Positions 23,931 to 41,002 of a stretch of DNA of 64,000 nucleotides are shown here, piece by piece. The notes under the pieces are model-generated. The model was not told the origin of the DNA, made no database searches, and saw only the letters and a list, made by a program, of their open reading frames with translations. A program made the translations under genes and the position numbers. The stretch's first letter is position 1. Each line of letters starts with the position of its first letter. The DNA comes from Robiginitalea sediminis (GTDB taxonomy: Bacteria; Bacteroidota; Bacteroidia; Flavobacteriales; Flavobacteriaceae), in contig NZ_NGNR01000003.1 of the NCBI RefSeq assembly GCF_002198115.1, positions 491,546 through 555,545 on the forward strand, given 5' to 3'.

Positions 23931-23944
23931 CTGATCTAAATCAG
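23931..23944 (+). promoter_or_regulatory. Crp/Fnr-type site F, before the TauE-DnaJ-CbpM genes
   Basis: CTGATCTAAATCAG is a perfect 14-bp dyad with FNR-like half-sites TGAT-N4-ATCA. A -7 element TACCTTCG lies at 23967-23974; centre-to-centre distance is exactly 33 bp. The predicted start site is near 23980, just before the ATG at 23993. Confidence 0.65.
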
Positions 23945-23992
23945 GGAATTGGGCCTTTTAAAGATGTACCTTCGGGAAAAGCACATACGCTG

Positions 23993-24754
23993 ATGCTCAC
24001 TCGGTATCTGCCATGGTTTATTTTGTTGGCGTTGCTGGCTGAAATTCTGGGGACGGTCGGGGGCTTCGGGTCTTCCGTCTACTTCGTGCCCATGGCCAAT
24101 TTCTTCATGGATTTCCAGTCCGTGCTGGGGATTACGGCCTTGTACCACCTGGCGAGCAACCTCAGTAAGATCGGGTTTTTCCGTAAAGGGATCGATAAAT
24201 CGCTGATCCTGTACATGGGAATCCCGGCTGTGGTGCTGGTTTCGGCCGGGGCATGGATGAGTCGCTGGATTGACCCGGAGTCGCTGAGTATGGTCCTGGG
24301 GGTCTTCCTGCTGGTGTTCTCCCTGGTATTTCTAATCCGGCGTGACCTTAAGGTGAAGCCCGATGGGAAGAATGCCCTGATAGGGGGAGCCCTTTCGGGG
24401 TTCCTGGCTGGTATTTTGGGAACCGGAGGGGCGGTACGCGGTGCGGTGATGACTACCTATAACCTGTCCAAGGAGCGATTCATCGCTACTTCGGCAGTCA
24501 TCGATCTGGCTGTTGATGTCAGCCGGACCCTGGTTTATGCCAACAACGGGTATATCCACAAACACGATCTGTACCTGGTGCCCTTTCTGATTGTGGTAAG
24601 CGTTGTGGGCACGTATATCGGGAAAAAAATACTGCAGCGGATTACCCAACAGCAGTTCAGGAAGTTTGTGTTGTTCCTGCTACTGCTCATAGGCCTGGTC
24701 ACCCTGGTTTACCATGTACCGGGCGTCTTGGGTTGGATTCGGGTAGCAGATTGA
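23993..24754 (+). CDS. TauE/SafE-family membrane permease
   Basis: A 253-residue inner-membrane protein with about eight hydrophobic segments of the TauE/SafE family, whose members export sulfite or organosulfonates and related anions. Family-like glycine-rich helices are seen in ILGTVGGFGSSVYFVP and GGALSGFLAGILGTGGAVRG. The ATG at 23993 (MLTRYLPWFILL) is chosen because the upstream 23 codons are polar and lie over the predicted promoter. It is 27 bases before the dnaJ-like gene. Substrate unknown; linkage to chaperone genes is unusual. Confidence 0.85.
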   Translation: MLTRYLPWFILLALLAEILGTVGGFGSSVYFVPMANFFMDFQSVLGITALYHLASNLSKIGFFRKGIDKSLILYMGIPAVVLVSAGAWMSRWIDPESLSMVLGVFLLVFSLVFLIRRDLKVKPDGKNALIGGALSGFLAGILGTGGAVRGAVMTTYNLSKERFIATSAVIDLAVDVSRTLVYANNGYIHKHDLYLVPFLIVVSVVGTYIGKKILQRITQQQFRKFVLFLLLLIGLVTLVYHVPGVLGWIRVAD

Positions 24755-24781
24755 GAATCGGTGCATTTATATGTTTTTGTG

Positions 24782-25675
24782 ATGGTGGAATTTATCGATT
24801 ATTACAAGGTTCTGGAACTCGGCCAATCGGCCAGTGAAAAAGAGATCAAAAAGGCCTACAGGAGGCTGGCGCGGAAGTACCATCCGGACTTGAACCCGGG
24901 CGATGCGGAAGCCGAGCGGCGATTTAAGCAGGTCAACGAGGCCCATGAGGTACTGAGCGACCCGGAGAAACGCAAGAAATACGACCAGTACGGCAAGGAC
25001 TGGGAACACGCCGAGGCCTTCGAGGCGCAGCGGAAAGCCCGGCGGACCCGTGGTACGGGAGGGGCTCATACCCACAGTGGCAGTGGCGAGGGAGACTTTT
25101 CGGACTTTTTCGAATCGATGTTCGGGGGGTTCTCCCGTTCCGGTTCACGCCAGGCCAGGGGGTTTAAGGGGCCCGACCTGTCGGCAACCCTGGAACTGGA
25201 CTTGCAGCAGGCCTACCGCACGCACAAACGGACCCTGGACCTGGGCGGCAAACAAATCCGCATCACTATTCCTGCGGGGGTGGAAAACGGGCAGACGATA
25301 CGGATCAAGGGCCATGGCGGGCCTGGCCTGAACGGTGGGCCGGATGGTGACCTCTACATTACCTTCAGTATCCGGAACCAAAGCGGTTTCACCAGGGAAG
25401 GCCCGCAGCTGTACAAAACCGTTCGGGTTCCTCTTACTACAGCCGTCCTTGGAGGTACCTTAACTATCGACACCTTCGATGGGCAGGCCCGGTTAAAGGT
25501 CAAACCGCTTACCCAGAACGGGACCCGGGTGAAACTCAAAGGCAAAGGGTTCCCGTTTTATAAGGAAGAAGGCGTTTATGGGGACCTGGTGGTTTCCTAC
25601 GAGGTGGCCCTGCCCACACAGCTTACGGACCGTCAGAAAGCCTTGTTCGAACAGCTAAAAGAGACGCAACTCTGA
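24782..25675 (+). CDS. cbpA: DnaJ-like co-chaperone, CbpA type
   Basis: A 297-residue Hsp40 that delivers substrates to DnaK. The J domain at residues 2-68 contains the essential HPD (KYHPDLNPG), then a G/F-rich linker, and then the two C-terminal beta domains ([36 protein letters not shown]). The zinc-finger of true DnaJ is absent, which is the CbpA/type II layout. The gene after it encodes a CbpM-like modulator three bases downstream, supporting the name. Start at 24782 ([13 protein letters not shown]). Confidence 0.92.
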
Positions 25676-25678
25676 ACC

Positions 25679-25975
25679 ATGAAAAACAAGACCTATATCC
25701 ACATTTCCGATGTTTGCCGGGGCCATGGCCTGGAACGCACCTTTTTGTACCGCCTGAGGGAATTTGAACTCATTGAGATCCGGGAGACGGATTCAGGAGA
25801 GGTCATAGACCATGGCCAGTTACCCCGTCTGGAGCGCCTTATCCGATTGCACCGCGACCTTGAAATTGAACCACAGGGGCTCTTGGCAGTGGAACAGTTG
25901 CTGCAACGTGTAGGGGAGTTGCAGGATGAAATCCGGATGCTCCGGTCCCGTCTGGGTCGCTGGGAGGATTTCTAA
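25679..25975 (+). CDS. cbpM: CbpM-like chaperone modulator (MerR-like)
   Basis: A 98-residue protein with a MerR-like winged-helix part (YIHISDVCRGHGLERTFLYRLREFELIEI) and a helical C-terminus (GLLAVEQLLQRVGELQDEIRML). CbpM binds the J domain of CbpA and blocks its work with DnaK. It is three bases after cbpA. Its final four bases overlap the end of the ABC ATPase gene on the opposite strand. Confidence 0.88.
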   Translation: MKNKTYIHISDVCRGHGLERTFLYRLREFELIEIRETDSGEVIDHGQLPRLERLIRLHRDLEIEPQGLLAVEQLLQRVGELQDEIRMLRSRLGRWEDF

Positions 25976-26658
25976 CCCCCGGTCACAATCCTTCCGTCCT
26001 CCATCTGGATGATGCGGTCCGTGCGGCGGGCAAAGTCCTCGTCGTGGGTCACAATAAGGAGGGACAGGCCTTTCTCTTCTTTGAGCTGCCTGAAAATCTG
26101 AAAGACATTTTCGGAATTGTAGCTGTCCAGGTTGCCCGTGGGTTCATCGCCCATCAGGATGGCCGGGTCATTGATCAGGGCCCTGGCAATGGCCACCCGT
26201 TGTTTTTCCCCTCCCGATATGCGCGAAGCCCGCTTGGCTGCCAGATGGTCTATGTGCAGCATTTTCAGCTTTTCCATGGCATCGTGCCGGACTTCCGCCG
26301 TTGTTTTCCGGGCCAGTTTCAGGCCCGGGAGCATCACATTATCCAGGACGGTGAATTCCCCTAAAAGGTAATGGAACTGGAAGACGAAACCGATATGGGC
26401 ATTGCGGATGGCAGATAACCGGTTGGCTGGTTTCCTGGTTAGCAATTCCCCTTTCAGGTACAGGGATCCGGTATATTCGGTATCCATGGTAGAGAGGATA
26501 TAGAGGAGTGTAGATTTCCCGGAACCTGACTTCCCCATAATGCTGGTGAATTCCCCCGGTTGTATGCTAAAACCGATATCCTTCAGCACGTGGAAGCGCA
26601 CGGGCTTGGTAAAGTGCTTGTCTATATGTTTGGCTTCCAGGACAGGGGTCATAGGCAT
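25972..26658 (-). CDS. ABC transporter ATP-binding protein (MacB/LolD type)
   Basis: A 228-residue ATPase with Walker A GKSGSGKST, Q-loop FQFHYLLGEF, signature ISGGEKQRVAIARAL, Walker B ILMGDEPTGNLD and an H-loop in VTHDEDFA. It drives the FtsX-type permease encoded just upstream, whose stop overlaps its start by one base (TAATG). With the HlyD-like adaptor it forms a three-gene export system, all on one transcript. Confidence 0.93.
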   Translation of the reverse strand: MPMTPVLEAKHIDKHFTKPVRFHVLKDIGFSIQPGEFTSIMGKSGSGKSTLLYILSTMDTEYTGSLYLKGELLTRKPANRLSAIRNAHIGFVFQFHYLLGEFTVLDNVMLPGLKLARKTTAEVRHDAMEKLKMLHIDHLAAKRASRISGGEKQRVAIARALINDPAILMGDEPTGNLDSYNSENVFQIFRQLKEEKGLSLLIVTHDEDFARRTDRIIQMEDGRIVTGG

Positions 26659-27920
26659 TAGTTTCCTCTGATAATTTTAACCGGGTCTATCCTGCGGGCC
26701 CGGGCTGCAGGGAGGTACCCGGCAATAAAGGTGGACACCAGGGCAAAACCAATCCCGATCAGGTAATACCAGGGGTCGTGGTTTACCGGGAAGGTGCTTA
26801 TGGTGGGCAGGGCCTCCGTTTCGAAGGGCAGGCTGTCGATGAGGTGGCTGAGGCCGAAGCCGATAAGCAGGCCCAGCAACCCGCCCCCCAGACCGATAAT
26901 AAGGGCCTGGCTCATAAAAATCTGGTGGACATCCCTGCCCGAAAACCCCGTGGCTTTCAGGATGGCGATATCGTTCATCTTCTCGTAGATGAGCATATTG
27001 AGGATGTTGTAGATGCCAAAGCCGGCTACAATCAGCAGGGTAATGGAAACGGCATAGGTGATGAGGTTGCGGATACTGGTTCCGGTTTCGAACTGGGCAT
27101 TGGCCTCCTGAATGTCCCGCGCCCTCACCCGGAACAGGGTTTCCAGTTCCCGGGCCATTGGGACTGCTGCTTCCAGCCTGTGGAGTTTGACGTTGATATC
27201 GGTGATGTAATTGGTAGGCTTGCCCATAATCCGCTGTACCGTCTGCACCTGGGCAAAACTCTGGCTATTGTCTATTTCGGCCAGGCCGCTCTGGTAGAGG
27301 CCTACGATTTTAAGGGGGAAAACCCCGCCTTCCGGGGTACTGACCTGGATCCGGTCTCCCAGGGCCAGGGAGAACTTATCCGCCAGTCCTGCGCCCAGGA
27401 TAATGCCGTTCTCGGAACGATGTAAGGCCTCCGGACTGCCCGCCACAATGTAATCCCCGATATTGGAGAGTCGGTCCTCCTCCAGGATGTCCACTCCGGA
27501 AAGGACACCACCCAGGTCCTGGGAACCCGACAGATAGAATATCTGTGCCCGGATCTGGGGGGTGGCCCCCAGAACGCGATCGTCCCGGCGCAGGTAGTCC
27601 AGGATGGGCAGGGCATTGTGTATTTTCAGCTGGCCCTGTTTGGGTTTTACAGACTGTATTTGCAGCAGATCACCGGAGAGGGATTCCAGCCTATGGGCAG
27701 GCTGTACGGCCGCGGGTTCCACTTCGTTGTAGAGGTGGATGTGCGGGGTCTGGTTCAGGATCAAATCGTCCAGCATCTGGTTGAGCCCGGTCATAAAACT
27801 CACCAGGGTGATATAGGCGCCAATGCCGAAGGTAACCCCAAGGGCTGCCGTTACGGTAGACTTTATCTTGGTTACCAGGTGGGTTCGCGCAATCCCCAGG
27901 ATGAGTTTCAGCCGGTTCAT
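26658..27920 (-). CDS. ABC transporter permease, MacB/LolE-like (FtsX family)
   Basis: A 420-residue inner-membrane protein with one N-terminal membrane helix (residues 20-45), a large periplasmic domain (about 50-275) and three C-terminal helices (VSITLLIVAGFGIYNIL, GLGGGLLGLLIGFGL, IGFALVSTFIAGYL). This is the mechanotransmission-type layout used to push lipoproteins, peptides or drugs through the envelope. Overlaps the adaptor gene by four bases. No outer-membrane channel gene is next to it, so a TolC-like partner must be elsewhere. Confidence 0.9.
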   Translation of the reverse strand: MNRLKLILGIARTHLVTKIKSTVTAALGVTFGIGAYITLVSFMTGLNQMLDDLILNQTPHIHLYNEVEPAAVQPAHRLESLSGDLLQIQSVKPKQGQLKIHNALPILDYLRRDDRVLGATPQIRAQIFYLSGSQDLGGVLSGVDILEEDRLSNIGDYIVAGSPEALHRSENGIILGAGLADKFSLALGDRIQVSTPEGGVFPLKIVGLYQSGLAEIDNSQSFAQVQTVQRIMGKPTNYITDINVKLHRLEAAVPMARELETLFRVRARDIQEANAQFETGTSIRNLITYAVSITLLIVAGFGIYNILNMLIYEKMNDIAILKATGFSGRDVHQIFMSQALIIGLGGGLLGLLIGFGLSHLIDSLPFETEALPTISTFPVNHDPWYYLIGIGFALVSTFIAGYLPAARARRIDPVKIIRGN

Positions 27921-29017
27921 TCTTCGGGTTTTAGTAAACGTGTTCCCGGTTGCAATCCGGAGCGGATCTCCACCCGATCCAGGGTAATGAGACCTGTTTC
28001 CACCTTAACCATGCCCGCTGTGGTACGGACGCTGTCGGCACCCACCAGATAGCTGCGCGGTATTGTCAGGGCGTCCTGACGGGTAGCAATCACGATGTTG
28101 GCCTCCCCGGAAAGGCCAGGGTAGAGTACTTCCGGGGGGGTGGTAAACCGCGCTTCCACCAGGAAGGTTTGGTTCCGGGTGTCTTTCTCCGGGTAGATTT
28201 TGGAGACCTTACCCTCAAAAAGCCTGTCTGCATAGGCATCCAGGGTTATCAGAACCTGTTGGCCCGTTTTCAGGCGTACTATGTCTACCTCGTCTACAAG
28301 CATTTCGGCAAGGAAGGTTTCCGCACTGCCCAGCATCGCCAAAGGTTCGTTGGGCAGGACGGCTTCCCCCGGTTCTTTGTAGAGGGCATAAACCTTACCG
28401 TAAATAGTACTGCGTATACGGAACTCCTCGGCATCGGAACTGCTGGCCTGATAGGTGTTTCGGGCTTGTTCCAGCTGGGTGCGCAGTTCCCGCTGCAGGC
28501 GGTGGTATTCGCTTTGAAGTTCCCGCAGGGTACTGGCCGAGCGCTCAAAGGCCAATTGCCGGCGTTCCAGTTCTGCCAGGGAGCCTATCTGCCGTGCCCA
28601 GAGTTTTGTTTGGCGGTCGTAGTTGGTGGAATCGTCCCGGTAGGTGAGTTCAGCCACCCGTATCCGGGCTGCGAGGTCATTGAGCGGGCTGGCTTCCCCC
28701 TGCAAGTTGGAAGCTGCCAGTTCCATTTGCAGGCGGGCGTTTTCACGGTATAAGTCCGTGGCATGGCCGTTGATCTGCAGCAAAGGGTCGCCAGGAACGA
28801 CCTGCCGGCCTTCTTCCACAAGATTGGCCTCCAGGATGCCGCTCACGGCAGCGTGGACCCGGTACATGCTGTCCGGCACAATGGTTACGGAGGCATAAAC
28901 CGCTTCGGTCACATCCAGGATTTCAGGGGCGATGCCGGCCTCGCCACCCCGGCACCCGGACAAGAGTGCGGCAGAAAGGGCAGATACAACTGCCATCAAA
29001 GGGGAAATAGGTTTCAT
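27917..29017 (-). CDS. HlyD/MacA-type periplasmic adaptor lipoprotein
   Basis: A 366-residue membrane-fusion protein. It begins MKPISPLMAVVSALSAALLSGCRGG, with a lipobox at LLSGC. A split biotinyl-lipoyl domain (HAAVSGILEANLVEEGRQVVPGDPLLQI, later TIYGKVYALYKEPGEAV) flanks a helical hairpin rich in charged residues (about 100-190), then beta-barrel and membrane-proximal domains. It is the first gene of the efflux operon. Upstream lies a predicted Crp/Fnr-type site and -7 box. Confidence 0.92.
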   Translation of the reverse strand: MKPISPLMAVVSALSAALLSGCRGGEAGIAPEILDVTEAVYASVTIVPDSMYRVHAAVSGILEANLVEEGRQVVPGDPLLQINGHATDLYRENARLQMELAASNLQGEASPLNDLAARIRVAELTYRDDSTNYDRQTKLWARQIGSLAELERRQLAFERSASTLRELQSEYHRLQRELRTQLEQARNTYQASSSDAEEFRIRSTIYGKVYALYKEPGEAVLPNEPLAMLGSAETFLAEMLVDEVDIVRLKTGQQVLITLDAYADRLFEGKVSKIYPEKDTRNQTFLVEARFTTPPEVLYPGLSGEANIVIATRQDALTIPRSYLVGADSVRTTAGMVKVETGLITLDRVEIRSGLQPGTRLLKPEE

Positions 29018-29068
29018 CCGCAAGAGGTTAAGGATTCTTAAAGGTACCACCGTAAACCGAAGATATGC

Positions 29069-29082
29069 ATGACAATTCTCAT
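29069..29082 (-). promoter_or_regulatory. Crp/Fnr-type site A, before the efflux operon
   Basis: On the - strand ATGAGAATTGTCAT. The -7 element TACCTTTA lies at 29039-29046 (- strand), centre-to-centre 33 bp. Predicted start near 29033, 16 bases before the adaptor ATG. Confidence 0.65.
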
Positions 29083-29182
29083 TAAAGGGGCTTGTAGGAA
29101 GTATCAGGTAATCCTGCCCCGGGTTAATGATGATAAAAGTTGATTAATAAAGGGTTAATGACGCGGATTCGGGCAACAGACG

Positions 29183-29196
29183 ATGAGGATTGTCAT
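29183..29196 (+). promoter_or_regulatory. Crp/Fnr-type site B, before the DoxX-like gene
   Basis: ATGAGGATTGTCAT, 13 of 14 positions the same as site A in promoter orientation. The -7 element TAGTTTGG lies at 29219-29226, again exactly 33 bp centre to centre. It points at the DoxX-like gene at 29267. Confidence 0.65.
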
Positions 29197-29266
29197 ATTT
29201 TGACCCTGGCCAAAGATTTAGTTTGGGCCCCAGTCAAACGTCAAAACCATTAATAAATTAACACGT

Positions 29267-29698
29267 ATGAATTTTCCATCTGTACTTAAATCGACCCAAT
29301 CTGAGCCCTTCGGTTTTATTGCAAGGGGCCTTGGACTGGTATACCTCTGGTTTGGCGCCCTGAAGTTCTTTCCGGGCCTCAGCCCGGCAGAAGCCCTGGC
29401 GGGGTCCACTATAGAAGTGCTTACTTTTGGCCTGATAGGCCCTTCCCTGGGTCTGGTCCTGCTCGCCCTTTGGGAATTCGCCATCGGCACCCTGCTTATT
29501 ACGGGTATTTGCCGCAAATGTGCCTTAACGGCAGCGCTTCTGCACATTGTCCTGACCTTTACCCCCCTGTTCTTTTTTCCTGAACTCTGCTTTACTGAAT
29601 TTCCCTTCGGCCTGACCCTTGTGGGGCAGTATATCATCAAAAACGTGGTTTTCCTGGGGGTTATGGTTGCCATGTACCGCAAGCTCCCGCGCAGCTAA
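29267..29698 (+). CDS. DoxX-like membrane protein
   Basis: A 143-residue protein with four hydrophobic helices and conserved-looking motifs of the DoxX/DUF417 group: LVYLWFGALKFFPG in helix 1 and LWEFAIGTLLITG in helix 2. These small membrane proteins are linked to redox or oxidative stress in several bacteria, but their reaction is unclear. It is transcribed divergently from the efflux operon and ends eight bases from the thioredoxin gene, which comes from the other side. Confidence 0.82.
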   Translation: MNFPSVLKSTQSEPFGFIARGLGLVYLWFGALKFFPGLSPAEALAGSTIEVLTFGLIGPSLGLVLLALWEFAIGTLLITGICRKCALTAALLHIVLTFTPLFFFPELCFTEFPFGLTLVGQYIIKNVVFLGVMVAMYRKLPRS

Positions 29699-29705
29699 GC
29701 CTGTG

Positions 29706-30005: not shown

Positions 30006-30022
30006 ATTACACGTTTATAGAT

Positions 30023-30030: not shown

Positions 30031-30053
30031 CGGATAGGAACCCCAGGGCTCCC

Positions 30054-30067
30054 ATGACCTAAGTCAT
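30054..30067 (+). promoter_or_regulatory. Crp/Fnr-type site C, between trxA and the USP operon
   Basis: ATGACCTAAGTCAT is a near-perfect 14-bp palindrome with half-sites ATGAC/GTCAT. Toward the USP gene, a -7 box TATCTTTA lies at 30090-30097, 33 bp centre to centre. Confidence 0.7.
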
Positions 30068-30120
30068 ATGCCGTTGGCAGGAAGATGGGTATCTTTAAAT
30101 AAACCTCCAAGACCTGCCCT

Positions 30121-30978
30121 ATGGAACTGCGTATTGCCATCCCCACGGATTTTTCCCCGGCCGCCGAAAAGGCAGCCCGCTATACCCTGGAACTCTTCCG
30201 GGAGGTGCCCTGTGTCTTTTTCCTGATGCACAGTTATACCCCTTCTTTTTTCAGGGCCGAGTACCTGTTGCACAGCCCCGGGCAGATAGGACTGGGCGAT
30301 TTTTATCGGTTCCGGGTAATGGATAAGCTCAGTACGCTTCGCAAGCGGCTGCAGAAAAGTGCAGATAACCCGAAGCACCGTTTTATAACCCATGCGGCTT
30401 TCAACACCCTCGATGCCGAACTCAATGAAATGGCGGAAAAGGAATCCCTCCACCTCATTGCCATGGGGACCCAGGGGGCCACAGGGGCCAAGGAAGTACT
30501 GTTGGGTACCCACGCGGTTATGGTAGCCCATAAATCCAGGATCCCCGTATTGATCATTCCTTCAGAGGCACAGGCTTCGGAGGTGGAAAACATCCTTTTC
30601 CCGGCCGATTATACCGCTTCCTATGCCGCCTTGCCCTGGACGGTCCTGGAGGCGATACTCCGCCAAACCAGTGCCCGTTTGCACGTATTGCATACGTATA
30701 CAGCGGAAGATGAAAGCCCGGAGCGGGTGGCCGGAAAGGAAGCCCTGGCCCATAGCCTCGAACCCTTCAAACCCGAATGGCACGAGCGGGAAAGCGCCGG
30801 GCTGGTAGAAGCCATCAATGCGTTTGCGGCGGAAGTACCTGTCCAGCTCCTGGTCCTGGTGCGCAACCGCCATACCTTCCTGGAGAACCTGTTGGTGACC
30901 CCGGTCATCGACCAGATTGGGTTCCATACCCGGATCCCGTTGCTCGTGCTCCCCCAGGTATCGATTACAAACCCTTAA
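30121..30978 (+). CDS. Universal stress protein (two UspA domains)
   Basis: A 285-residue cytosolic protein made of two UspA folds, about residues 1-142 and 145-280. The first keeps the ATP-binding signature (AMGTQGATGAKEVLLGTHA, G-2x-G-9x-G-T); in the second this motif is degenerate (LVLVRNRHTFLENLLVTPV). Tandem USPs of this length are common in Bacteroidetes and are usually induced by oxygen limitation, starvation or stress. It is the first gene of a + strand operon with the next three genes. Confidence 0.9.
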   Translation: MELRIAIPTDFSPAAEKAARYTLELFREVPCVFFLMHSYTPSFFRAEYLLHSPGQIGLGDFYRFRVMDKLSTLRKRLQKSADNPKHRFITHAAFNTLDAELNEMAEKESLHLIAMGTQGATGAKEVLLGTHAVMVAHKSRIPVLIIPSEAQASEVENILFPADYTASYAALPWTVLEAILRQTSARLHVLHTYTAEDESPERVAGKEALAHSLEPFKPEWHERESAGLVEAINAFAAEVPVQLLVLVRNRHTFLENLLVTPVIDQIGFHTRIPLLVLPQVSITNP

Positions 30979-30990
30979 AAACAGTATGTC

Positions 30991-31395
30991 ATGAAAGATA
31001 CAGGCATTTGGATAGACAAGCAGGAAGCCTGGCTGGTACACCTGGCAGAAACAGGAGAACATCTCGAAACAGTAGCCTCTGAAGTGGAATTTTTCAACCC
31101 CAAAGGGGGGTCCCGTTCCAAAACCCGGTGGGGGCCGCAGCAGGTGGTGCACGACAGCAAGTACACCGAGCGCGAAAAACAACAGCTGCATCGCTATTTC
31201 GAAGATCTCAGCGCCCGTCTGGGGGATACCGGCAAACTGGTCCTCTACGGGCCGGCAGGAACCAACGAACAGTTTAAGCGTTATTTGGACCGCCGCCACC
31301 CTGAACTGGCTGCCCGCGTGAGCGATGTCCTCACGGCAGACAGCATGACCGAGAACCAGTTCCGGGCCCTGGTACGGGAGTATTACGCCCACTGA
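30991..31395 (+). CDS. Small eRF1-domain-2-like protein in the stress operon
   Basis: A 134-residue cytosolic protein. The shape (MKDTGIWIDKQEAWLVHL at the start, KLVLYGPAGTNEQFKRYLDRR and ADSMTENQFRALVREYY at the end) resembles the RNase H-like middle domain of release factor eRF1 found in small bacterial proteins often linked to stress genes. Such proteins may act on ribosomes, but the function is unproven. It sits 12 bases after the USP gene and two bases before the ATP-cone protein. Confidence 0.65.
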   Translation: MKDTGIWIDKQEAWLVHLAETGEHLETVASEVEFFNPKGGSRSKTRWGPQQVVHDSKYTEREKQQLHRYFEDLSARLGDTGKLVLYGPAGTNEQFKRYLDRRHPELAARVSDVLTADSMTENQFRALVREYYAH

Positions 31396-31396
31396 C

Positions 31397-32260
31397 ATGG
31401 CCGGCAGCAGGGCTTCCAAGCCCAAAATCCGCAAAGCCTCGGGCCAGATGGCCACGTATTCGGAGGCTAAACTCCGGCGTTCGCTCCGCAGGAGCGGGGC
31501 AGATCCCGGGGCGGTGGATGCCATTGTCCAAACCCTGAACAGTGAGTTATACCCGGGCATGACCACGCGTGAGATTTACAACCGGGCCTTTTCCCTGCTG
31601 CGGGCCTACAGGAATTCCTTTGCATCCCGTTACAAACTCAAGCGGGCCATCTACGAATTGGGTCCCACGGGATTCCCCTTCGAGAAATTCGTTGCGGCCT
31701 TGCTGAACCACTCCGGGTACTCAGCGACAACCAACGTGATACTACATGGGGATTGCGTAGACCACGAGGTGGATGTGGTGGCCCGCAACGGGGATACCCA
31801 GACCCTGATAGAATGTAAGTTCCATGCAGATGACGGCCGCAAATGCCATGTGAAAGTCCCGCTGTATATCGATTCCCGGTTTCGGGATATCGCTGCCGGT
31901 TCCGATAAAAACGGTGCTTTAGACATCCGCCTGGAACCCGGGTGGGTGGTCACCAATACCCGGTTCACCTCCGACGCCCTGAAGTACGGCAACTGCGCGG
32001 GGTTGTATCTGCTCAGTTGGAACCACCCCAGAGGGAATGGCCTGAAGGACCGCATTGACCGGCACCGCCTATACCCCATAACGGTCAGTATGCTTCTAAG
32101 TGGCCGGGAGAAGGAGTTTTTACTCGGACGGGAGGTGGTGCTGGGGCGCCAGCTCCTGGAGTCTGCCTTTTTGCTGGACCACCTTGGGGTATCCCGGGAA
32201 AGGAAAGACAGGATCCTGGGGGAATTCCTGGAATTGTGTGAACCCAAAAACAAAACATGA
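31397..32260 (+). CDS. ATP-cone plus restriction-endonuclease-fold protein
   Basis: A 287-residue protein with an N-terminal ATP-cone at about residues 10-100 (the nucleotide-sensing module of ribonucleotide reductases) followed by an Mrr-like PD-(D/E)xK nuclease domain at about 103-220. Active-site candidates are Asp in HEVDVVARNG and the E-x-K of LIECKFH. ATP/dATP sensing joined to DNA cleavage suggests a nuclease gated by nucleotide pools. No methyltransferase is present, so it is not a classical restriction system. Its last four bases overlap the next gene (ATGA). Confidence 0.8.
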   Translation: MAGSRASKPKIRKASGQMATYSEAKLRRSLRRSGADPGAVDAIVQTLNSELYPGMTTREIYNRAFSLLRAYRNSFASRYKLKRAIYELGPTGFPFEKFVAALLNHSGYSATTNVILHGDCVDHEVDVVARNGDTQTLIECKFHADDGRKCHVKVPLYIDSRFRDIAAGSDKNGALDIRLEPGWVVTNTRFTSDALKYGNCAGLYLLSWNHPRGNGLKDRIDRHRLYPITVSMLLSGREKEFLLGREVVLGRQLLESAFLLDHLGVSRERKDRILGEFLELCEPKNKT

Positions 32261-33621
32261 GCCCTTTTAAGATTCATTTTTGGGGTGCTGCCGGAGGGGT
32301 TACCGGCTCCAAATTCCTGGTGGAATCCGGAGAGGATCGGGTATTGGTCGATTGTGGCCTGTTTCAGGGTCTTAAAGAACGACGGCTCCTGAACCGCGCC
32401 CCCTGGCCCCTTGCCCCGGAGTCGATCCGTGCCGTGTTGCTTACCCACGGGCACCTGGACCATGTGGGGCTTCTGCCCCGGTTGGTCCGTCAGGGATTCC
32501 GGGGCCCGGTCTATGGTACGCCGCCCAGCCTGGAAGTTGCGCGGATTGTCCTGGAGGACAGCGCGGAAATACAGGTAGAGGAAGCCGAAAAAGCGGCCAG
32601 GGAGGGCTACAGCCGTCACGCCAGGCCGGAACCCCTTTACGAGCCTGCCGATGTTGCCCTAAGCCTGCCGCTGCTGCAGTCGGTTTCCTTGGAAGAGTGG
32701 CGGCAAATCCGGCCCGGATGGCGGTTCCGCTTCCGGTACAACGGACATATCCTCGGGGCCGCCTTCATCGAGATGGACCTGGACGGAAAGCGTCTGGTCT
32801 TTTCCGGCGATGTGGGCCGGCCGGAAGACCCCTTGCTTTACCCGCCCCAGCGGCCAGACCGGGCAGATGTACTCCTTCTGGAGAGCACTTACGGAAATAC
32901 CTTGCACCCCAAAGACGATATGGGCCGGGATCTTGCCCTGGAGATCAATGCTGCCGTCCGGGACCGGGGGACCTGTATTATCCCCAGTTTTGCGGTTGAG
33001 CGCCTCCAAACCGTGGTGTATCTGCTCTGGCAGCTTCGGAAAGCGAACCGCATCCCTCCCTTGCCGATCTATGTGGACAGCCCCATGGGGATTGACGTAT
33101 GGTCCCTCTTCCAGCGCTTTCCCCAGTGGCACCGCTTGCCCGAAGACCAGTTTGGGATTATGGCCCGCTCTGTTACCCTAATCCGGGAGTACCGGGATAC
33201 CTGGAAAGCCATAGATGATTCCCGGCCCAAGGTGGTGGTTGCCGGCAGCGGGATGCTCAGTGGCGGTCGGGTACTGACCTACCTGAGCCAGTTGCTGGAC
33301 CAGGAGACTACCCGCATTGTACTGGTGGGTTTTCAGGCAGAAGGGACCCGGGGCCGAAACCTGCTGGAAGGTGCACACGAGCTGAAGCTTTTTGGCCGGT
33401 ATACCCGGGTAGCGGCAAAAGTCCGGCAACTCGATGCCCTCTCGGCCCATGCCGACCAGGAGGAGCTCCTGTGGTGGACCTCCCAAATCCGGGAACGCCC
33501 CGCACATGTTTTCCTGGTTCATGGGGAAGAAACCGCCCGCGACGCCTTACGGGTGAAGTTGTATACCGAGCGCGGGTGGGAAGCCGAAATGCCCCAACAG
33601 GGGCAGGTGGTGACCTTGTAG
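32257..33621 (+). CDS. Metallo-beta-lactamase/beta-CASP nuclease
   Basis: A 454-residue cytosolic enzyme of the RNA-processing MBL family (CPSF73/RNase J-like). Zinc ligands are visible in LLTHGHLDHVG (HxHxDH, near residue 68), SGDVGRP and DALSAHADQEELL; the beta-CASP insert lies at about residues 190-370 (VDSPMGIDVW, VVVAGSGMLSGGRVLTYL), and the C-terminal HGEE motif is VFLVHGEETAR. It probably cleaves RNA. It is coupled to the ATP-cone nuclease gene. Confidence 0.9.
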   Translation: MSPFKIHFWGAAGGVTGSKFLVESGEDRVLVDCGLFQGLKERRLLNRAPWPLAPESIRAVLLTHGHLDHVGLLPRLVRQGFRGPVYGTPPSLEVARIVLEDSAEIQVEEAEKAAREGYSRHARPEPLYEPADVALSLPLLQSVSLEEWRQIRPGWRFRFRYNGHILGAAFIEMDLDGKRLVFSGDVGRPEDPLLYPPQRPDRADVLLLESTYGNTLHPKDDMGRDLALEINAAVRDRGTCIIPSFAVERLQTVVYLLWQLRKANRIPPLPIYVDSPMGIDVWSLFQRFPQWHRLPEDQFGIMARSVTLIREYRDTWKAIDDSRPKVVVAGSGMLSGGRVLTYLSQLLDQETTRIVLVGFQAEGTRGRNLLEGAHELKLFGRYTRVAAKVRQLDALSAHADQEELLWWTSQIRERPAHVFLVHGEETARDALRVKLYTERGWEAEMPQQGQVVTL

Positions 33622-33625
33622 AGCC

Positions 33626-33639
33626 CTGACCTTTGTCAT
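33626..33639 (+). promoter_or_regulatory. Crp/Fnr-type site D, before the 215-residue lipoprotein
   Basis: CTGACCTTTGTCAT, five bases after the MBL stop codon. A -7-like TACCTTGT lies at 33662-33669, 33 bp centre to centre. The transcript would have a leader of about 70 bases before the ATG at 33746. Confidence 0.6.
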
Positions 33640-33745
33640 TGGGGGTACCGCTTCTGGGGTGTACCTTGTAGAAAAGCGTGGGACCCTGCCGGAGGAGGAG
33701 CCGGCGTTCTCCCGAAATCGCTCAAACCCTGAAAAGACAGACGCC

Positions 33746-34393
33746 ATGAAACCTTTCCGATTGTTCAGTCTCTTTCTGTTATTGCTCCCAATGGCCTGTA
33801 GTACGGTTCGTCTGGAGAGTTCCTATAAAGATCCCGATACGGTTCTCTTTAACGCCAACAAATTACTCGTAATTGGCCTTACCCAGGATATGGGGGTGCG
33901 GGAGGCGTTCGAAAGCCGCCTGCAGGAAATCTTTTCAGACCAGGGCATTGAAACTGTGCGCAGTATCGATGTTTTCGACGTGGAGTTTACCGCTTCCGAA
34001 CGCTCCGAGGCCGAACTGGACCTGGTGGAACAGCAACTCCTGGAAAAGGACTTCGACGCCATTCTGTTTACCAAAGTCCTCGGAACGGAAACCCGGACCA
34101 CCCTACGGCGTAAAATAAGGGAGATTGGCGAATCCTACGACCGGTTCAACGAAGACTACATCCTTCACCAGGGGGTGTATTACGACCGCTCCTACTATGA
34201 ACTCGCCACGGATTACTACGCCGAAACCTCGGTGTACTGCATCTGCGAAGGCAAGGAGCGCAACCTGATCTGGCGCAGTGTGGTGCTGATTTCAGAACCC
34301 CGAAATACGCGTCAGGCCGTGAAGGACTTCATTGAACTGATTACCCAAAACATGACCGAGAACCAGGTCCTGCTGGGCACCGAAGCGTTTTAG
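33746..34393 (+). CDS. Hypothetical lipoprotein of the stress cluster
   Basis: A 215-residue protein; from the ATG at 33746 it starts MKPFRLFSLFLLLLPMACSTVRLESSYKD, with lipobox LPMAC. The mature part has an alternating alpha/beta pattern (LLVIGLTQDMGVREAFESRL, DAILFTKVLGTETRTT), resembling small DUF4136-like lipoproteins but not clearly a member. Several tyrosine pairs occur near residues 150-165. Ends three bases from the convergent cardiolipin synthase gene. Function unknown. Confidence 0.75.
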   Translation: MKPFRLFSLFLLLLPMACSTVRLESSYKDPDTVLFNANKLLVIGLTQDMGVREAFESRLQEIFSDQGIETVRSIDVFDVEFTASERSEAELDLVEQQLLEKDFDAILFTKVLGTETRTTLRRKIREIGESYDRFNEDYILHQGVYYDRSYYELATDYYAETSVYCICEGKERNLIWRSVVLISEPRNTRQAVKDFIELITQNMTENQVLLGTEAF

Positions 34394-34396
34394 GGG

Positions 34397-35794
34397 CTAC
34401 AGCAAGGGACTCAGGGTCCTGGCAGCACCTTCAATAAGCCGGTGGGTCCACGGCCGCCTGCGGAATGTTTCATAATCGAGCACAATACTCCGCTCGCTGT
34501 CCCGGATGAAATCCTCTCGCAGGGTGATGGCCTTTTCCGGGTCGAATATCAAGGCGTTTACCTCGTAGTTGTGCTGAAAACTCCTGTTGTCTACATTGGC
34601 CGTCCCCACGGTGCAAATCCGGTCGTCTACCGTAATGGTTTTACTGTGGAGGAACCCCTCCGGGTACTGGTAAATCCGGATTCCGCTTTTCAGGAACCCG
34701 TTAAAGTAGGAGCGGACACACCAGTTTACCAGGGCGCTGTCTGCCTGGGCTGAAACCAGGACCCGGACATCCACCCCGCCCAGGGCAGCGGTTTGCAGGG
34801 CCAGCTGAATGGCCGGGCTGGGGATCAGATAGGGGTTGGTGATGTAGATATGCCGGCGGGCATGGTTGATCAGGGAGAAATAAAACTGCTCCATAAGCGG
34901 GAAATCGTCGTCCGGGCTGGAAGCGAGGATTTGTACCGCCGATGACCCTCGGGGCTCATCTTTTGGGTAATCCGGCAGCGGAAGGTGCTGGCGGGTTACC
35001 AATTCCCAATCGTTGGCGAATACCGTGTCCAGGTGCACCGCTGCACTGCCGCGCACCATCAGGTTCATGTCGTGCCACATGCCAAGGTCCTGGTCTCCTT
35101 TGAGGTATTTGTCCGAAATGTTGATTCCCCCTGTAAAGGCCACTTCCCCGTCCACCACAATGATCTTGCGGTGGTTGCGGTAATTTACCGAGGTCATGAA
35201 TTTACCCAGCCGGAACGGGAGGAAGGCATAGACCTCAATCCCTGCCTTTCGCAGGCGCCTTAGGTAGGAAGGGCTCAGGGAATAGCTCCCAATGCTGTCG
35301 TAGATAAGCCGGACCTCCACCCCTTCGGCTTCCTTTCGGGTAAAAAGTTCCAGCAGCCGCTCGGCCAGTTCCCCTTCTTCAAAAATATAATACTGCAGGT
35401 GGATGGTGGTGCGGGCATCCTGCAGGGCCTGAAATACACGGTTAAAGGTCTCTTCCCCATCCTTGAGGAAGACCACCTCATTGTCCGCACTAAGCGGGAA
35501 TCCGGTTTGTGATGCGATCAGTTGGTGTAAGCGGCCCCTGGGGCTGTCGGGTGAAAATAGGTTGTTGGACGGGTCCGGGGCTTCGGGGGGGCTGCGGCGC
35601 TGTTGCAGGTAGACCTTCTGCTTGCGGCGGTTTCGGCCTACCAGGAGGTATAAAAGTATGCCTCCTACCGGGATGGTGAAAATGGCTAACAGCCAAGCCA
35701 ATGTTTTCGAGGGTCGTACACCATTCAGTAGGAGGCTTATAACAATAGAGATTGCTACGAGTATGTAAAGAACGATCAGGATGTAGAGCCACAC
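34397..35794 (-). CDS. cls: Cardiolipin synthase (phospholipase D family)
   Basis: Makes cardiolipin from phosphatidylglycerol. The 465-residue protein has two N-terminal membrane helices (residues 2-25 and 33-53) and two HKD motifs: HRKIIVVD near residue 225 and HSKTITVD near residue 395, each followed by the usual GG/GTANVDNRSF context. It follows tonB by 22 bases and is probably co-transcribed with it. A second cardiolipin synthase is encoded at 54605-56047. Confidence 0.93.
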   Translation of the reverse strand: MWLYILIVLYILVAISIVISLLLNGVRPSKTLAWLLAIFTIPVGGILLYLLVGRNRRKQKVYLQQRRSPPEAPDPSNNLFSPDSPRGRLHQLIASQTGFPLSADNEVVFLKDGEETFNRVFQALQDARTTIHLQYYIFEEGELAERLLELFTRKEAEGVEVRLIYDSIGSYSLSPSYLRRLRKAGIEVYAFLPFRLGKFMTSVNYRNHRKIIVVDGEVAFTGGINISDKYLKGDQDLGMWHDMNLMVRGSAAVHLDTVFANDWELVTRQHLPLPDYPKDEPRGSSAVQILASSPDDDFPLMEQFYFSLINHARRHIYITNPYLIPSPAIQLALQTAALGGVDVRVLVSAQADSALVNWCVRSYFNGFLKSGIRIYQYPEGFLHSKTITVDDRICTVGTANVDNRSFQHNYEVNALIFDPEKAITLREDFIRDSERSIVLDYETFRRRPWTHRLIEGAARTLSPLL

Positions 35795-35816
35795 AGCGCC
35801 TCGGTTTTACCCGAAT

Positions 35817-36539
35817 TTACATCAATTTGAAATTGATGGGGATGCTGTAAGGCACTTTTACATTTCGGTTCCGTTGGCGGCCCGGCTTCATTTGCGGGAG
35901 GGAAGCGATAATCCGATGGGCTTCTTTCTCCAGGATCCGGTCCGGGCCACGGGTAACGATGTCGGTAACCTTTCCGTTGCTGCCGATGGCAAAAAGTACA
36001 TATACTTTTCCTTGTATACCCAGTTCAAGGGCTGTATCCGGGTATTTGAAGTGTTTGGCGATGTGCTCCTGGATTTTTTGCTGGAAGCAAACCCGCTGGT
36101 CTGCGGCAGACATACCTTCACAACCTGGGAAAACAGGTACTTCCTCGATGATGGCAAAAGGCACGGAAATCTCTTCTTCCGCTTCGAATGTATCCAGGTC
36201 CGAGGCATCCAGGTCTACATCGGCAATGACGGTTTCCTGGGTGATTTCGGTACTCTCGATAACGGTTTCCTCAATTTCCTCGGTGTCTTCAATGACTTCG
36301 ATCACCTCGGGTGCGGCAGGGGGCGGTGGCGGTGGCTGGGTGCGTACCTGCTCGGTTACCGGTGCCTCTTCATTGAGGTTGTCCACTTGAACCAGTTGGA
36401 CGATTTCTTCCTGGACACTGTCGTAGGATTTCCACTCCAGGGCCCTCCAGGTCAGGAACAGCACTACAGTGAGCCCGATTACAAAATACAGGCCACTATC
36501 CCTGTTCAAATCTGCTTTGGGATTTTTCTTGACTTGCAT
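35817..36539 (-). CDS. tonB: TonB-family energy transducer
   Basis: A 240-residue protein spanning the periplasm: an N-terminal inner-membrane helix (LYFVIGLTVVLFLTW), a proline run (QPPPPPPAAP) followed by an acidic Ile/Glu/Thr-rich spacer, and a TonB C-terminal domain (LGIQGKVYVLFAIGSNGKVTD, LPQMKPGRQRNRNVKVPYSIPINFKL). No ExbB/ExbD genes are nearby. A predicted Crp/Fnr-type site lies upstream. Confidence 0.93.
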   Translation of the reverse strand: MQVKKNPKADLNRDSGLYFVIGLTVVLFLTWRALEWKSYDSVQEEIVQLVQVDNLNEEAPVTEQVRTQPPPPPPAAPEVIEVIEDTEEIEETVIESTEITQETVIADVDLDASDLDTFEAEEEISVPFAIIEEVPVFPGCEGMSAADQRVCFQQKIQEHIAKHFKYPDTALELGIQGKVYVLFAIGSNGKVTDIVTRGPDRILEKEAHRIIASLPQMKPGRQRNRNVKVPYSIPINFKLM

Positions 36540-36587
36540 GGCTGTTAAATTTATACCTCAATGTACGTCCATGCATCCGGTTAAAAC

Positions 36588-36601
36588 ATGATAATAATCA
36601 G
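36588..36601 (-). promoter_or_regulatory. Crp/Fnr-type site G, before tonB-cls
   Basis: ATGATAATAATCAG on the + strand, with FNR-like halves TGAT-N4-ATCA. On the - strand a -7-like TACATTGA lies at 36558-36565, 33 bp centre to centre; start predicted near 36552, 13 bases before the tonB ATG. Confidence 0.6.
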
Positions 36602-36686
36602 TTTGACCAGCCTGAAATTCAGAAAGATTCAGTATTAACCCTTAAAATTTGAGAAACCCTTAAGAAAGCGGTATGACGGTTGGCCC

Positions 36687-37652: not shown

Positions 37653-37676
37653 GCGGGGGATTCGGGAGGGAAAAGG

Positions 37677-37973: not shown

Positions 37974-37974
37974 G

Positions 37975-38259: not shown

Positions 38260-38306
38260 TTTATGGTGCAAATTTGAAAACAATTTTTGATAAAATATTA
38301 TATATC

Positions 38307-38326
38307 TTTATGATGTAAAACATAAA
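38307..38326. promoter_or_regulatory. Inverted repeat in the LysR-sbtA divergent promoter
   Basis: TTTATG (38307-38312) and CATAAA (38321-38326), exact inverted 6-bp arms around an 8-base A/T-rich spacer. The repeat overlaps a -7-like TATCTTTA (38303-38310) that points toward the LysR gene, so binding would allow autorepression while acting upstream of the sbtA operon. Confidence 0.5.
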
Positions 38327-38334
38327 TAAAGATT

Positions 38335-39261: not shown

Positions 39262-39301
39262 AAGCACCTGGGAATGGCCTTAGCCTTAATTTTCGAGGGG
39301 G

Positions 39302-40183
39302 TTACCACCAATAAGAGATTCCGGCGCTGATATAAAACACAGGCTTGAGGTCCTCCTCATAGTCCATTTCCGCCCCGCTTACCGTAGCCGGGCTTTGGGG
39401 GAGGGACAGGTATGGGCTTGCGGTAATGATCCAATGCTTCTGGAAGAAATGAACCGGCAACCCGAATTCCACGTTGAGAACCTTAAAGGCAGCTACTTCA
39501 TCGATTTGGAGCTCAGAAAAGGGCTCCATGCTGCTTCCCTGGCCGCGTCCGCTGTCTTTTCGGTTACCCAGTCGGCTGGTGTTGTAATACGCCTGGTAGA
39601 AATACTGGCTTCCCGCATATAGGGATACCTGCGGCCGGAAGAGCCAGTGCTGCTGCGTGTCCTTCAGGTCTTTCATAAGGGTAAGGCCGAGGAAGTAATC
39701 GGCGCCCTCGTCCGGACCGAAAAAACCGTGGAGGCTCACCTGGGTTTCCACCACCTTCCAGTCGTAGCCCAACAAGCCTGTAAGGCCTGCCACGGTTTCG
39801 GACTGCACGTTGTAGCTGTCCTGGTCAAAGAAATAAGCGGTGACCGCAGCGCCACCGCTCCAGCGTTCCCCGGAGGCCTGGTATCCCGCCGAGGCCAGTA
39901 CCAGGTCTACCCGGCCTTCTCCTTCTGCCAGGAGATAGGAAAGTGAGGCGTCTGCGTAGAACCCGGATTTATGGTAATAGCCCAGGGAGGGCAGCAGGTA
40001 TGGGGCTGCCACGGTGTCGCGCCTGCCCATAAAGACGGCATCGCTGACATAACTAACATCAGAAAGGACATAAGAAAAAGGTTCGCCTTCCGGGCTGGAG
40101 GTGGCCTGTTTGAGTTCTTGCGAAGTCAGGGTGAGAACGGATCCCGCGAGAAAGGCCAGAAGTAAGGGCGTAGTAGTTTTCAT
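39302..40183 (-). CDS. Secreted barrel-like hypothetical protein
   Basis: A 293-residue protein with a signal peptide (MKTTTPLLLAFLAGSVLTLTSQ) and strongly alternating beta strands rich in Tyr, Trp and Gly, ending in an aromatic strand (PVFYISAGISYWW), as in outer-membrane beta barrels. About ten strands can be traced (GLTGLLGYDWKVVETQVSLHGFF, FGLPVHFFQKHWIITASPYLSL). No family recognised. Follows the DUF6799-type gene by 73 bases with a stable hairpin between, so it may be partly co-transcribed from site E. Confidence 0.72.
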   Translation of the reverse strand: MKTTTPLLLAFLAGSVLTLTSQELKQATSSPEGEPFSYVLSDVSYVSDAVFMGRRDTVAAPYLLPSLGYYHKSGFYADASLSYLLAEGEGRVDLVLASAGYQASGERWSGGAAVTAYFFDQDSYNVQSETVAGLTGLLGYDWKVVETQVSLHGFFGPDEGADYFLGLTLMKDLKDTQQHWLFRPQVSLYAGSQYFYQAYYNTSRLGNRKDSGRGQGSSMEPFSELQIDEVAAFKVLNVEFGLPVHFFQKHWIITASPYLSLPQSPATVSGAEMDYEEDLKPVFYISAGISYWW

Positions 40184-40203
40184 GGTTATCCGTTAAAAAG
40201 CAA

Positions 40204-40243
40204 GCCGACACCGGGGCAGGTTAAAGCAAGCCCCGGTCTCGGC
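40204..40243 (-). terminator. Hairpin between the DUF6799-type and barrel-like genes
   Basis: GCCGACACCGGGGC (40204-40217) pairs with GCCCCGGTCTCGGC (40230-40243), 13 of 14 positions, 12-base loop. On the - strand it is followed by TTGCTTTTT: a leaky terminator or RNA-stability element. Confidence 0.5.
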
Positions 40244-40256
40244 ATATGCCATGGGT

Positions 40257-40934
40257 TTAGGTAGATTTCTTCTTAGCCGCTGCCATAGGAGGGGCTGTAG
40301 GCTTTTTCAGCATCTTCTTAGCCTGGATTTGCTTGCGTTGTATCAGCTGCTTGCGCATCTGGTACATGTTCCGGAACAGTTCCCCGTCAACGCCCAGGCA
40401 CTCTCCGTCCTGGAGCCTTACCCGGTCCTGGGTGCGCATCTGGTAGGTGCCATCCGGAAACACGGTTGTTCCGTTTTCCAGGCGTGTGGCGGTTTCAAGC
40501 CTGACCTGTTCCTGGTTTCGGATTTGGTAGACATTACCGTCCATGAAGGTGTAGTGCACCCGGTTTTGGTTGCGCATCCGTACCTGTTCGGCATTCAGCC
40601 CGGCATTTTCTTTCTGGACCTTGTTGCGGTACTGGTACTCGTTGCGGTACATGACACCGTCACCGTCCAGGCATTCGCCATCCCTGAGGCGGTAGCGTTT
40701 ACCGTCCGGGGCTTCATAATTCCCGTTCGGGTAAAGCACGGTTCCGTCGGAGAGGGTTTGTTGTTCCCTGAGATGGATTTCTGCCCGGTCTCTGAGTTGG
40801 AGCATTTCACCATCGACGGCGACTAGTTTCGTTCTGTCCTGATCCTGGATCCGGTCGCGATCGCGGTCCTGGGCATTCAGTGTTGCTGCAGCCATGGCGA
40901 GCAACATAAGGCCAATGGTTTTCTTTTTCATCAC
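40257..40934 (-). CDS. Secreted DUF6799-type protein with two repeat units
   Basis: A 225-residue exported protein (MMKKKTIGLMLLAMAAATLNAQ). Two similar modules follow, about residues 32-95 and 115-180, each containing a LxxGTTVFPDGTYQM-like turn (SDGTVLYPNGNYEAPDGK; ENGTTVFPDGTYQMRTQD) and then RLxDGECLxxDGxxxRN. This is the pattern of the DUF6799 family. The end is basic (QRKQIQAKKMLKKP). Role unknown; found in the periplasm by prediction. It has a Crp/Fnr-type site upstream. Confidence 0.8.
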   Translation of the reverse strand: MMKKKTIGLMLLAMAAATLNAQDRDRDRIQDQDRTKLVAVDGEMLQLRDRAEIHLREQQTLSDGTVLYPNGNYEAPDGKRYRLRDGECLDGDGVMYRNEYQYRNKVQKENAGLNAEQVRMRNQNRVHYTFMDGNVYQIRNQEQVRLETATRLENGTTVFPDGTYQMRTQDRVRLQDGECLGVDGELFRNMYQMRKQLIQRKQIQAKKMLKKPTAPPMAAAKKKST

Positions 40935-40988
40935 CGTAAGATTTAAAGTTTATGGTGATGAAAGTACGTAGGGTATATAGGAGTATCA

Positions 40989-41002
40989 ATGACCTACATC
41001 AT
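40989..41002 (-). promoter_or_regulatory. Crp/Fnr-type site E, before the DUF6799-type gene
   Basis: On the - strand ATGATGTAGGTCAT. A -7-like TACTTTCA lies at 40959-40966 (- strand), 33 bp centre to centre; start near 40953, about 20 bases before the ATG. Confidence 0.62.

Follow-up and report, generated by a model that had tools for sequence, protein, structure and literature searches.

This analysis concerns seven short elements, A to G, in a 64,000-nucleotide stretch of the Robiginitalea sediminis genome (hereafter, the window), each of which consists of a TGA-N6-TCA dyad and a TAnnTT-type -7 box lying before a predicted stress gene or operon (Table 1). The original prediction, made from the DNA letters, took these elements for the class II sites of a single Crp/Fnr-type regulon. 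All seven 14-bp dyads and all the boxes are where it had located them; the distance of 33 bp from centre to centre is correct for an 8-bp, TAnnTTTG-type box (32 bp for the hexamer), and the distance between the first base of the dyad and the first base of the box is 35 in each of the seven. As detailed below, this phasing recurs throughout the genome and across the family, and the elements quite probably represent class II promoters that are shared by two Crp/Fnr-family regulators, one FNR-like and the other a receiver-Crp protein that is encoded next to a histidine kinase with a LOV domain.

The genes behind the elements differ in how well they can be identified. In Pfam, the membrane protein of unit B has only a sub-threshold match, to DUF417, and ORF134 of unit C has no match. 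The unit C genes appear to form one operon, as judged by strand and spacing. The true start of the unit D protein probably lies inside its open reading frame, the start preferred by the gene caller being 123 bp downstream of site D. The TauE reading frame probably begins near 23993, downstream of site F, because the gene caller prefers this start and two homologues align from residue 24. One part of the original prediction, namely, that the C dyad also controls trxA, is unsupported in this genome: in the reverse direction, towards trxA, the TAnnTT lies at 36, not 35. In two relatives (G204 and G205; L256 and L258), the C dyad serves trxA and the universal stress protein (USP) gene in both directions, with the spacing of 35.

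Table 1. Dyads, -7 boxes and target units of the seven elements. Predicted start sites rest on the box placement at -12 to -5 taken from PMC9723704; names in quotation marks are those of the original prediction.
Feature	Position	Strand	Remarks
Dyad F (TGA-N6-TCA)	23932..23943	+	before tauE-dnaJ-cbpM; kept at 3/5 orthologous blocks
-7 box of F, TACCTT	23967..23972	+	predicted start site ~23979
Target unit F	23993..25975	+	TauE, DnaJ, MerR_2 protein ("CbpM-like")
Dyad A	29070..29081	-	before HlyD-FtsX-ABC efflux operon; kept at 3/5 orthologues
-7 box of A, TACCTT	29041..29046	-	predicted start site ~29034
Target unit A	25972..29050	-	ABC ATPase, FtsX/MacB permease, HlyD membrane fusion protein
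Dyad B	29184..29195	+	before DoxX-like gene; kept at 2/2 orthologues
-7 box of B, TAGTTT	29219..29224	+	predicted start site ~29231
Target unit B	29267..29698	+	"DoxX-like" membrane protein
Dyad C	30055..30066	+	before USP operon; kept at 5/5 orthologues
-7 box of C, TATCTT	30090..30095	+	predicted start site ~30102
Target unit C	30121..33621	+	USP, ORF134, Mrr_cat-domain protein, beta-CASP metallo-beta-lactamase
Dyad D	33627..33638	+	before gene without Pfam match ("lipoprotein"); kept at 5/5 orthologues
-7 box of D, TACCTT	33662..33667	+	predicted start site ~33674
Target unit D	33659..34393	+	protein without Pfam match
Dyad G (AT-centred, FNR-like)	36589..36600	-	before tonB-cls; kept at 5/5 orthologues
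-7 box of G, TACATT	36560..36565	-	predicted start site ~36553
Target unit G	34397..36539	-	TonB_C protein, PLD/cardiolipin-synthase-like protein
Dyad E (GGTCATTG type)	40990..41001	-	before DUF6799 gene; kept at 2/2 orthologues found
-7 box of E, TACTTT	40961..40966	-	predicted start site ~40954
Target unit E	40257..40934	-	DUF6799 protein

The fixed phasing greatly exceeds chance, as had been claimed for the window. Among the 23 TGA-N6-TCA dyads of the window (46 orientations), 7 carry a TAnnTT at this distance (offset 35) in one of their two orientations and the remaining 16 carry none there; across the other 59 offsets from 12 to 71, boxes average 0.17 per offset. Across the whole genome (3.30 Mb in 15 contigs), the combined pattern TGA-N6-TCA-N23-TAnnTT has 45 matches compared to 4 for the reversed pattern. 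The expected chance level at offset 35 is likewise about 4 (0.576 boxes per offset for 208 dyad orientations, scaled to the genome-wide total of 1466); the 208 orientations come from 400 kb of the same genome (20 stretches) that were picked after the hits were known and contain no hit, so this background gives the off-spacing rate only. Reversed patterns and shifted spacings stood in for shuffled sequence as controls, and this genome-wide check favours the pattern.

The same spacing stands out in other genomes. In 20 stretches from 17 genomes (390 kb) surrounding homologues of the response regulator described below, some of which were picked for known sites, offset 35 has 145 boxes for 356 dyad orientations, and the other 59 offsets have 5.1 on average and 14 at most. 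A second set, 44 loci retrieved with the response regulator as sole query and best-matching among the 79 retrieved, yields 72 boxes at offset 35 against a mean of 2.9 elsewhere. For an evenly drawn sample of 199 Flavobacteriaceae genomes, two narrower patterns were used: class 1, AT-centred (TGATWWWWATCAT-N22-TAnnTT), and class 2, GC-tolerant (TGAYNNNRGTCAT-N22-TAnnTT). Class 1 is present in 155 genomes and has 901 matches with 22 free bases vs 64 with 21; class 2 is present in 137 genomes, with 457 matches in total. The phased pattern is real.

Its placement is that of a promoter element, with gene starts and gene boundaries defined by a simple purpose-made gene caller. In R. sediminis, a start on the same strand follows the box by 9-152 bp in 38 of the 45 matches, and no such start lies within 250 bp of L001, L002, L003, L037, L038:8381, L046 and L049. 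Matches inside called genes are L002, L003, L038:8381 and L054:12072, the last also located 110 bp before a gene. One match (C9:240649), which begins at the 3' end of a gene for one of the Crp-like proteins P0002 and P0003 (see below) and has its next same-strand start 435 bp on, is probably due to chance. In the stretches from relatives, 144 of the 145 sites lie outside called genes although 86% of this DNA is coding, and 130 are within 250 bp of a same-strand start. Some divergent promoters in these stretches (L155-L174) use one dyad in both directions.

The sites are also conserved, as shown by orthologous loci from five Robiginitalea genomes (G199, G200, G201, G202 and G204), a genus that fits the closest named relatives of our genome (the response regulator is 75% identical to that of R. 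aestuariiviva). The site is kept at 25 of the 29 orthologous promoters, with TGA, TCA, the spacing and the -7 box constant and the inner six bases variable. G199 retains all seven sites in the same order and orientation, its proteins being 55-92% identical. No response regulator was found in G201, which keeps most of the gene block of the window; sites C, D and G are retained there and have AT-rich dyads, and sites A and F are absent although the HlyD and DnaJ genes are still present. In G191, the other Robiginitalea genome without the response regulator, the HlyD gene had no match.

The position of the dyad within the promoter is supported by analogy with Flavobacterium psychrophilum, for which PMC9723704 maps the sigma-A box TAnnTTTG at -12 to -5. 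With the TA of the box at -12, the dyad 12-mer would span -47 to -36 and be centred at -41.5, the class II activator position, and the start sites in Table 1 are predicted on the same basis. Alignment of 144 sites from relatives reveals conserved positions that the search pattern did not impose, namely, A/C at -48, T at -35 (96%, and 88% in R. sediminis), T at -6 and G/A at -5; the 43 sites aligned from R. sediminis show the same trends. A -33 TTG with a 17-23 bp spacer occurs in 24 of the 144 sites, within the range of control windows (14 to 31), as expected for activator-dependent promoters. A variant comprises the sites ending in TCATTG (9 of 43, including those at 33636-33641 and 40987-40992 of the window), which create a TTG at -35 to -33 and hence a possible -33 element over the operator edge.

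Which proteins might bind these dyads? The genome encodes four proteins with the HTH_Crp_2 domain (PF13545), of which P0001 and P0004 share the recognition helix GTATE..IR; the other two Crp-like proteins, P0002 and P0003, were set aside as their recognition helices differ. P0001 (C1:1050275-1050907), whose gene lies some 2.6 kb away from the ccoNO (cbb3 oxidase) operon promoter, scores over the HTH_Crp_2 cut-off and has near full-length matches to solved Crp/Fnr proteins (cNMP-binding fold). It falls below the NCBIfam cut-off for Fnr (NF008365, 94.6 bits vs 228) and is therefore denoted here as FNR-like rather than Fnr. Similarly to the FNR-type oxygen sensors of Escherichia coli and Aliivibrio fischeri, it has FNR-type proteins among its solved relatives, a CxxC near the N-terminus (given the likely start) and a cysteine aligned with that of the FNR stretch vceip; unlike in those sensors, the third N-terminal cysteine is absent, and another invariant cysteine sits elsewhere, in the sensor domain. 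Four cysteines at fixed spacing are found in 29 of the 30 best-scoring orthologue loci, the 30th having been missed by the helix pattern. The cysteines of FNR serve in cluster ligation, and through its own conserved cysteines P0001 probably senses oxygen. P0001 is followed by a site-bearing gene for a 285-amino-acid protein that had no match in NCBIfam, the sole family scan made; it is USP-sized, and we label it a USP by this size and the site context.

P0004 (C9:53103-54170) is a response regulator with the domain order REC-cNBD-HTH_Crp and with the phosphorylation residues E8-D9, D52 and K104, all invariant in 16 orthologues. The Glu of GELS and the Arg of PRTSSA bind cAMP in CRP. In an alignment with mycobacterial CRP, the former is Gln in P0004 and the latter falls on Tyr; with both residues replaced, P0004 does not classify as a cAMP-responsive CRP. 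The upstream, overlapping gene encodes P0005, a histidine kinase with LOV, HisKA and HATPase_c domains. Residues 235-394 of P0005 match blue-light receptors among solved structures (best, 8a3u, E 1.8e-42), and the motif GRNCRFLQ with the LOV cysteine is present. P0005 would be a candidate for phosphorylating P0004, with blue light as the putative signal. A site is located 28 bp before the kinase gene, and 11 of the 16 kinase-regulator pairs compared have one no more than 170 bp ahead of the kinase. The response regulator is also adjoined by a gene for a 256-amino-acid sigma-70-like protein, below the family cut-off (L031:638-1408, minus strand; C9 ~52.3-53.0 kb), with relatives in 13 of the 26 loci covered. 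Elsewhere in the order, Crp/Fnr homologues of one Flavobacteriales genome are ascribed a MalR-like carbon role in PMC8510549.

From these features, we consider it quite probable that the class II promoters are shared by P0001 and P0004. A Crp/Fnr-family dimer would bind (A/C)TGA-N6-TCAT centred at -41.5, directly beside the sigma-A polymerase on the TAnnTT(T) -7 box, and, we infer, would activate rather than repress; the seven elements would then be part of about 40 promoters in the genome that are common to the two paralogous regulators. P0001 would prefer AT-centred dyads before genes of anaerobic and microaerobic energy metabolism. P0004, presumably phosphorylated by the adjacent LOV kinase, would accept GC-richer dyads, often ending in GTCATT, and would act on genes for universal stress proteins, Hsp20, dodecin and flavin reductase as well as on its own operon, that is, by autoactivation. 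Within the window, site G is most likely an FNR target and sites C and D are probably shared by both regulators; A, B, E and F would lean towards the response regulator.

The targets in R. sediminis are consistent with such a division. AT-centred sites precede ccoNO, hemN, PFOR, 2-oxoacid:ferredoxin oxidoreductase, ferredoxin, an Rnf-type operon, NiFe hydrogenase, PEP carboxykinase, PPDK and cytochromes; GC-tolerant sites precede USPs, Hsp20, dodecin, flavin reductase, a pyridoxamine-oxidase-like gene, DnaJ and the kinase-regulator operon. The centre is AT in 11 of 12 energy units (the exception being nos) vs 0 of 12 stress units, these 24 units having been sorted after the sites were seen, with the 285-amino-acid gene beside P0001 counted among the stress units and the remainder, including G (AT-centred), D and E, left out. 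In the stretches from relatives, the 130 first genes behind sites include 22 Usp, 10 Hsp20, 9 patatin and 7 YtxH genes. The L155-L174 stretches resemble stress islands in which sites are followed by genes for USP, Hsp20, patatin, YtxH and dodecin; a recurrent operon in them resembles the HlyD-FtsX-ABC efflux operon of the window, the likeness being one of gene sizes only.

The number of sites depends on the presence of the Crp/Fnr-type regulators across the 199 genomes, a conclusion that the counts support. Relatives of P0004 are found in 86 genomes (a REC-only hit in G002 was dropped and a partial hit in G194 kept) and P0001 orthologues in 119 (a match at E <= 1e-40 was required, which removed seven genomes with weaker hits). 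The mean numbers of class 1 and class 2 sites are 8.57 and 4.63 with both regulators (n=49), 5.54 and 3.27 with the response regulator only (n=37), 3.49 and 1.36 with FNR only (n=70), and 0.74 and 0.33 with neither (n=43). Only 2 of the 156 carrier genomes have no site compared to 30 of the 43 with neither regulator; 11 of the 12 genomes of at least 2.9 Mb that have neither contain at most one site, and the twelfth, G138, contains seven. The 12 genomes with close relatives of P0004 (R. sediminis included) average 9.0 class 2 sites vs 3.24 in the 74 others. Within Robiginitalea, the eight genomes with the response regulator have 11, 4, 8, 14, 2, 6, 13 and 6 class 2 sites and the two genomes without it have 1 and 0; in this count, the response regulator of G206 is partial at a contig end and G203 is 74% complete.

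These counts divide the original prediction. The Crp/Fnr-type class II part is supported by the phasing, the placement, the conservation, the -41.5 position and the regulator-dependent site number. The one-regulon part gives way, probably to two overlapping regulons, and the single-regulon reading was set aside because sites persist in genomes where the response regulator is the only one of the two present and are missing from most genomes with neither. What is new, then, is the two-regulator structure and the light sensor, and the core interpretation of the elements holds.

Several observations weigh against the two-regulator explanation or narrow it. More than two sites are present in four of the 43 genomes that lack both regulators: G048 and G147, which are 82% and 73% complete, and G138 and G188, both 99% complete. 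The latter two harbour 7 and 5 sites, respectively, and neither regulator was matched there at the cut-offs applied. A genome was scored as lacking FNR when nothing matched at E <= 1e-40, and more distant FNR-like paralogues are possible. The presence of the regulators correlates with lifestyle and genome size, of which the check covered size. About 4 of the 45 matches are expected by chance, and 4 are inside called genes. Site A is lost in G201, which lacks the response regulator, but also in G200, which has it. AT-rich relatives show no clear split by centre composition, and AT-centred sites also surround the response regulator. In R. sediminis, a -33 TTG is found in 11 of the 43 sites, above the control windows (2 to 10); nine of these 11 come from TCATTG at the edge of the dyad itself, and, given this excess, replacement of the -33 element by the activator cannot be claimed for all sites. 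The LOV motif is present in only 10 of 21 kinases adjoining such response regulators, so light cannot be the general signal and the input varies between species. Finally, 20 of the 44 response-regulator loci have no site within the fetched flanks, among them a Crocinitomicaceae locus and a run of unplaced Flavobacteriales bins; the response regulator is therefore not tied to the site grammar throughout the phylum.

The alternative that survives best, although we regard it as unlikely, is that one FNR-like regulator controls all the sites, that the receiver-Crp protein has other targets and that the two site classes reflect drift in a GC-rich genome. The near-identity of the two recognition helices, the persistence of C, D and G in G201 and the blurring of the classes in AT-rich genomes are all compatible with this possibility. 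However, the 37 genomes that have only the response regulator at the above threshold retain sites without exception, the kinase-regulator operon is itself preceded by sites, class 2 sites are nearly gone in the two Robiginitalea genomes that lack the response regulator, and sites are frequent around response-regulator genes, including the loci fetched by that gene alone.

Less probable still, in our assessment, is repression: a repressor of the Crp/Fnr family, or a regulator that both activates and represses, would use the sites as its operators, and steric demands would keep the dyad beside the promoter. Crp/Fnr binding near -41.5 can also repress in principle, and the TTG over the dyad edge in nine sites of this genome would allow a steric block of the -33 contact. 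Repressors, however, tolerate many operator positions, and the single-base phasing fits a contact between activator and polymerase better; nor is the -33 TTG enriched in relatives.

That the motif is the promoter of an alternative sigma factor, for example, the sigma-70-like protein, is very improbable. This gene adjoins the response regulator, with relatives in half of the loci surveyed, but the -7 box has the usual sigma-A form, TAnnTT(T), the upstream half is symmetric, being a dyad that some divergent promoters use in both directions, and the sigma-like gene went unmatched in the other 13 of the 26 loci, of which most have sites; on these grounds, this reading was rejected. Chance, or a low-complexity artefact of AT-rich intergenic DNA, could account for the few expected background matches and was otherwise rejected as virtually negligible, being contradicted by the spacing and reversed-pattern controls, the footprints and the co-occurrence with the regulators.

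The preferred explanation, two regulators sharing class II promoters, can be compared to several known systems. In class II promoters of E. coli, FNR (TTGAT-N4-ATCAA) or CRP is centred at -41.5. The promoters described here are alike in having a symmetric TGA...TCA dyad at the same predicted position, regulators of the Crp/Fnr family and FNR-like targets (cbb3 oxidase, hemN, nosZ, hydrogenase); they differ in the TAnnTT -7 box in place of the -10 TATAAT, the asymmetric flank (A/C at -48, T at -35) and the second, two-component-type regulator that probably shares the operators. Dormancy and stress regulons of the DosS/DosR and Anr types control universal stress proteins and Hsp20. The likeness to DosS/DosR consists in the pairing of a sensor kinase with a response regulator and in the USP and Hsp20 genes as putative targets; unlike in that system, the output domain is Crp/Fnr rather than NarL type, and the sensor in this genome is a LOV domain. 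LOV-linked general stress responses include YtvA-sigma B in Bacillus and LovK-PhyR in Caulobacter, which resemble the arrangement predicted here in that a blue-light receptor is linked to stress genes, and differ from it in that their output involves an alternative sigma factor and not a response regulator of the Crp/Fnr class.

Open-access literature, represented mainly by titles and abstract openings and with few subscription papers, yielded no account of the motif or of a LOV kinase-Crp/Fnr regulator pair, and has little to say on how activators are arranged at Bacteroidota promoters. A rigid motif that spans the genome and the family, phased to the exact base, allows start sites and regulators to be predicted for many genes and makes the control of low-oxygen and stress genes in flavobacteria directly testable; it would also tie a stress regulon of marine bacteria to a blue-light sensor and to a two-component Crp/Fnr regulator of an unusual kind. 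A tentative extension, which we hold to be possible rather than probable, is that in marine flavobacteria blue light and oxygen converge on one operator grammar, with the LOV kinase-driven regulator competing or cooperating with the FNR-like sensor at common class II promoters, to yield a general stress regulon that integrates both signals and dispenses with an alternative sigma factor.

Some genomes encode two or three receiver-Crp regulators (G011, G037, G056, G061, G063, G108, G129 and G168). In these, one copy is 46-54% identical to P0004 and the others about 40%, and the multiple regulators probably represent subfamilies; in G011, G037 and G056, the copies lie within 25 kb.

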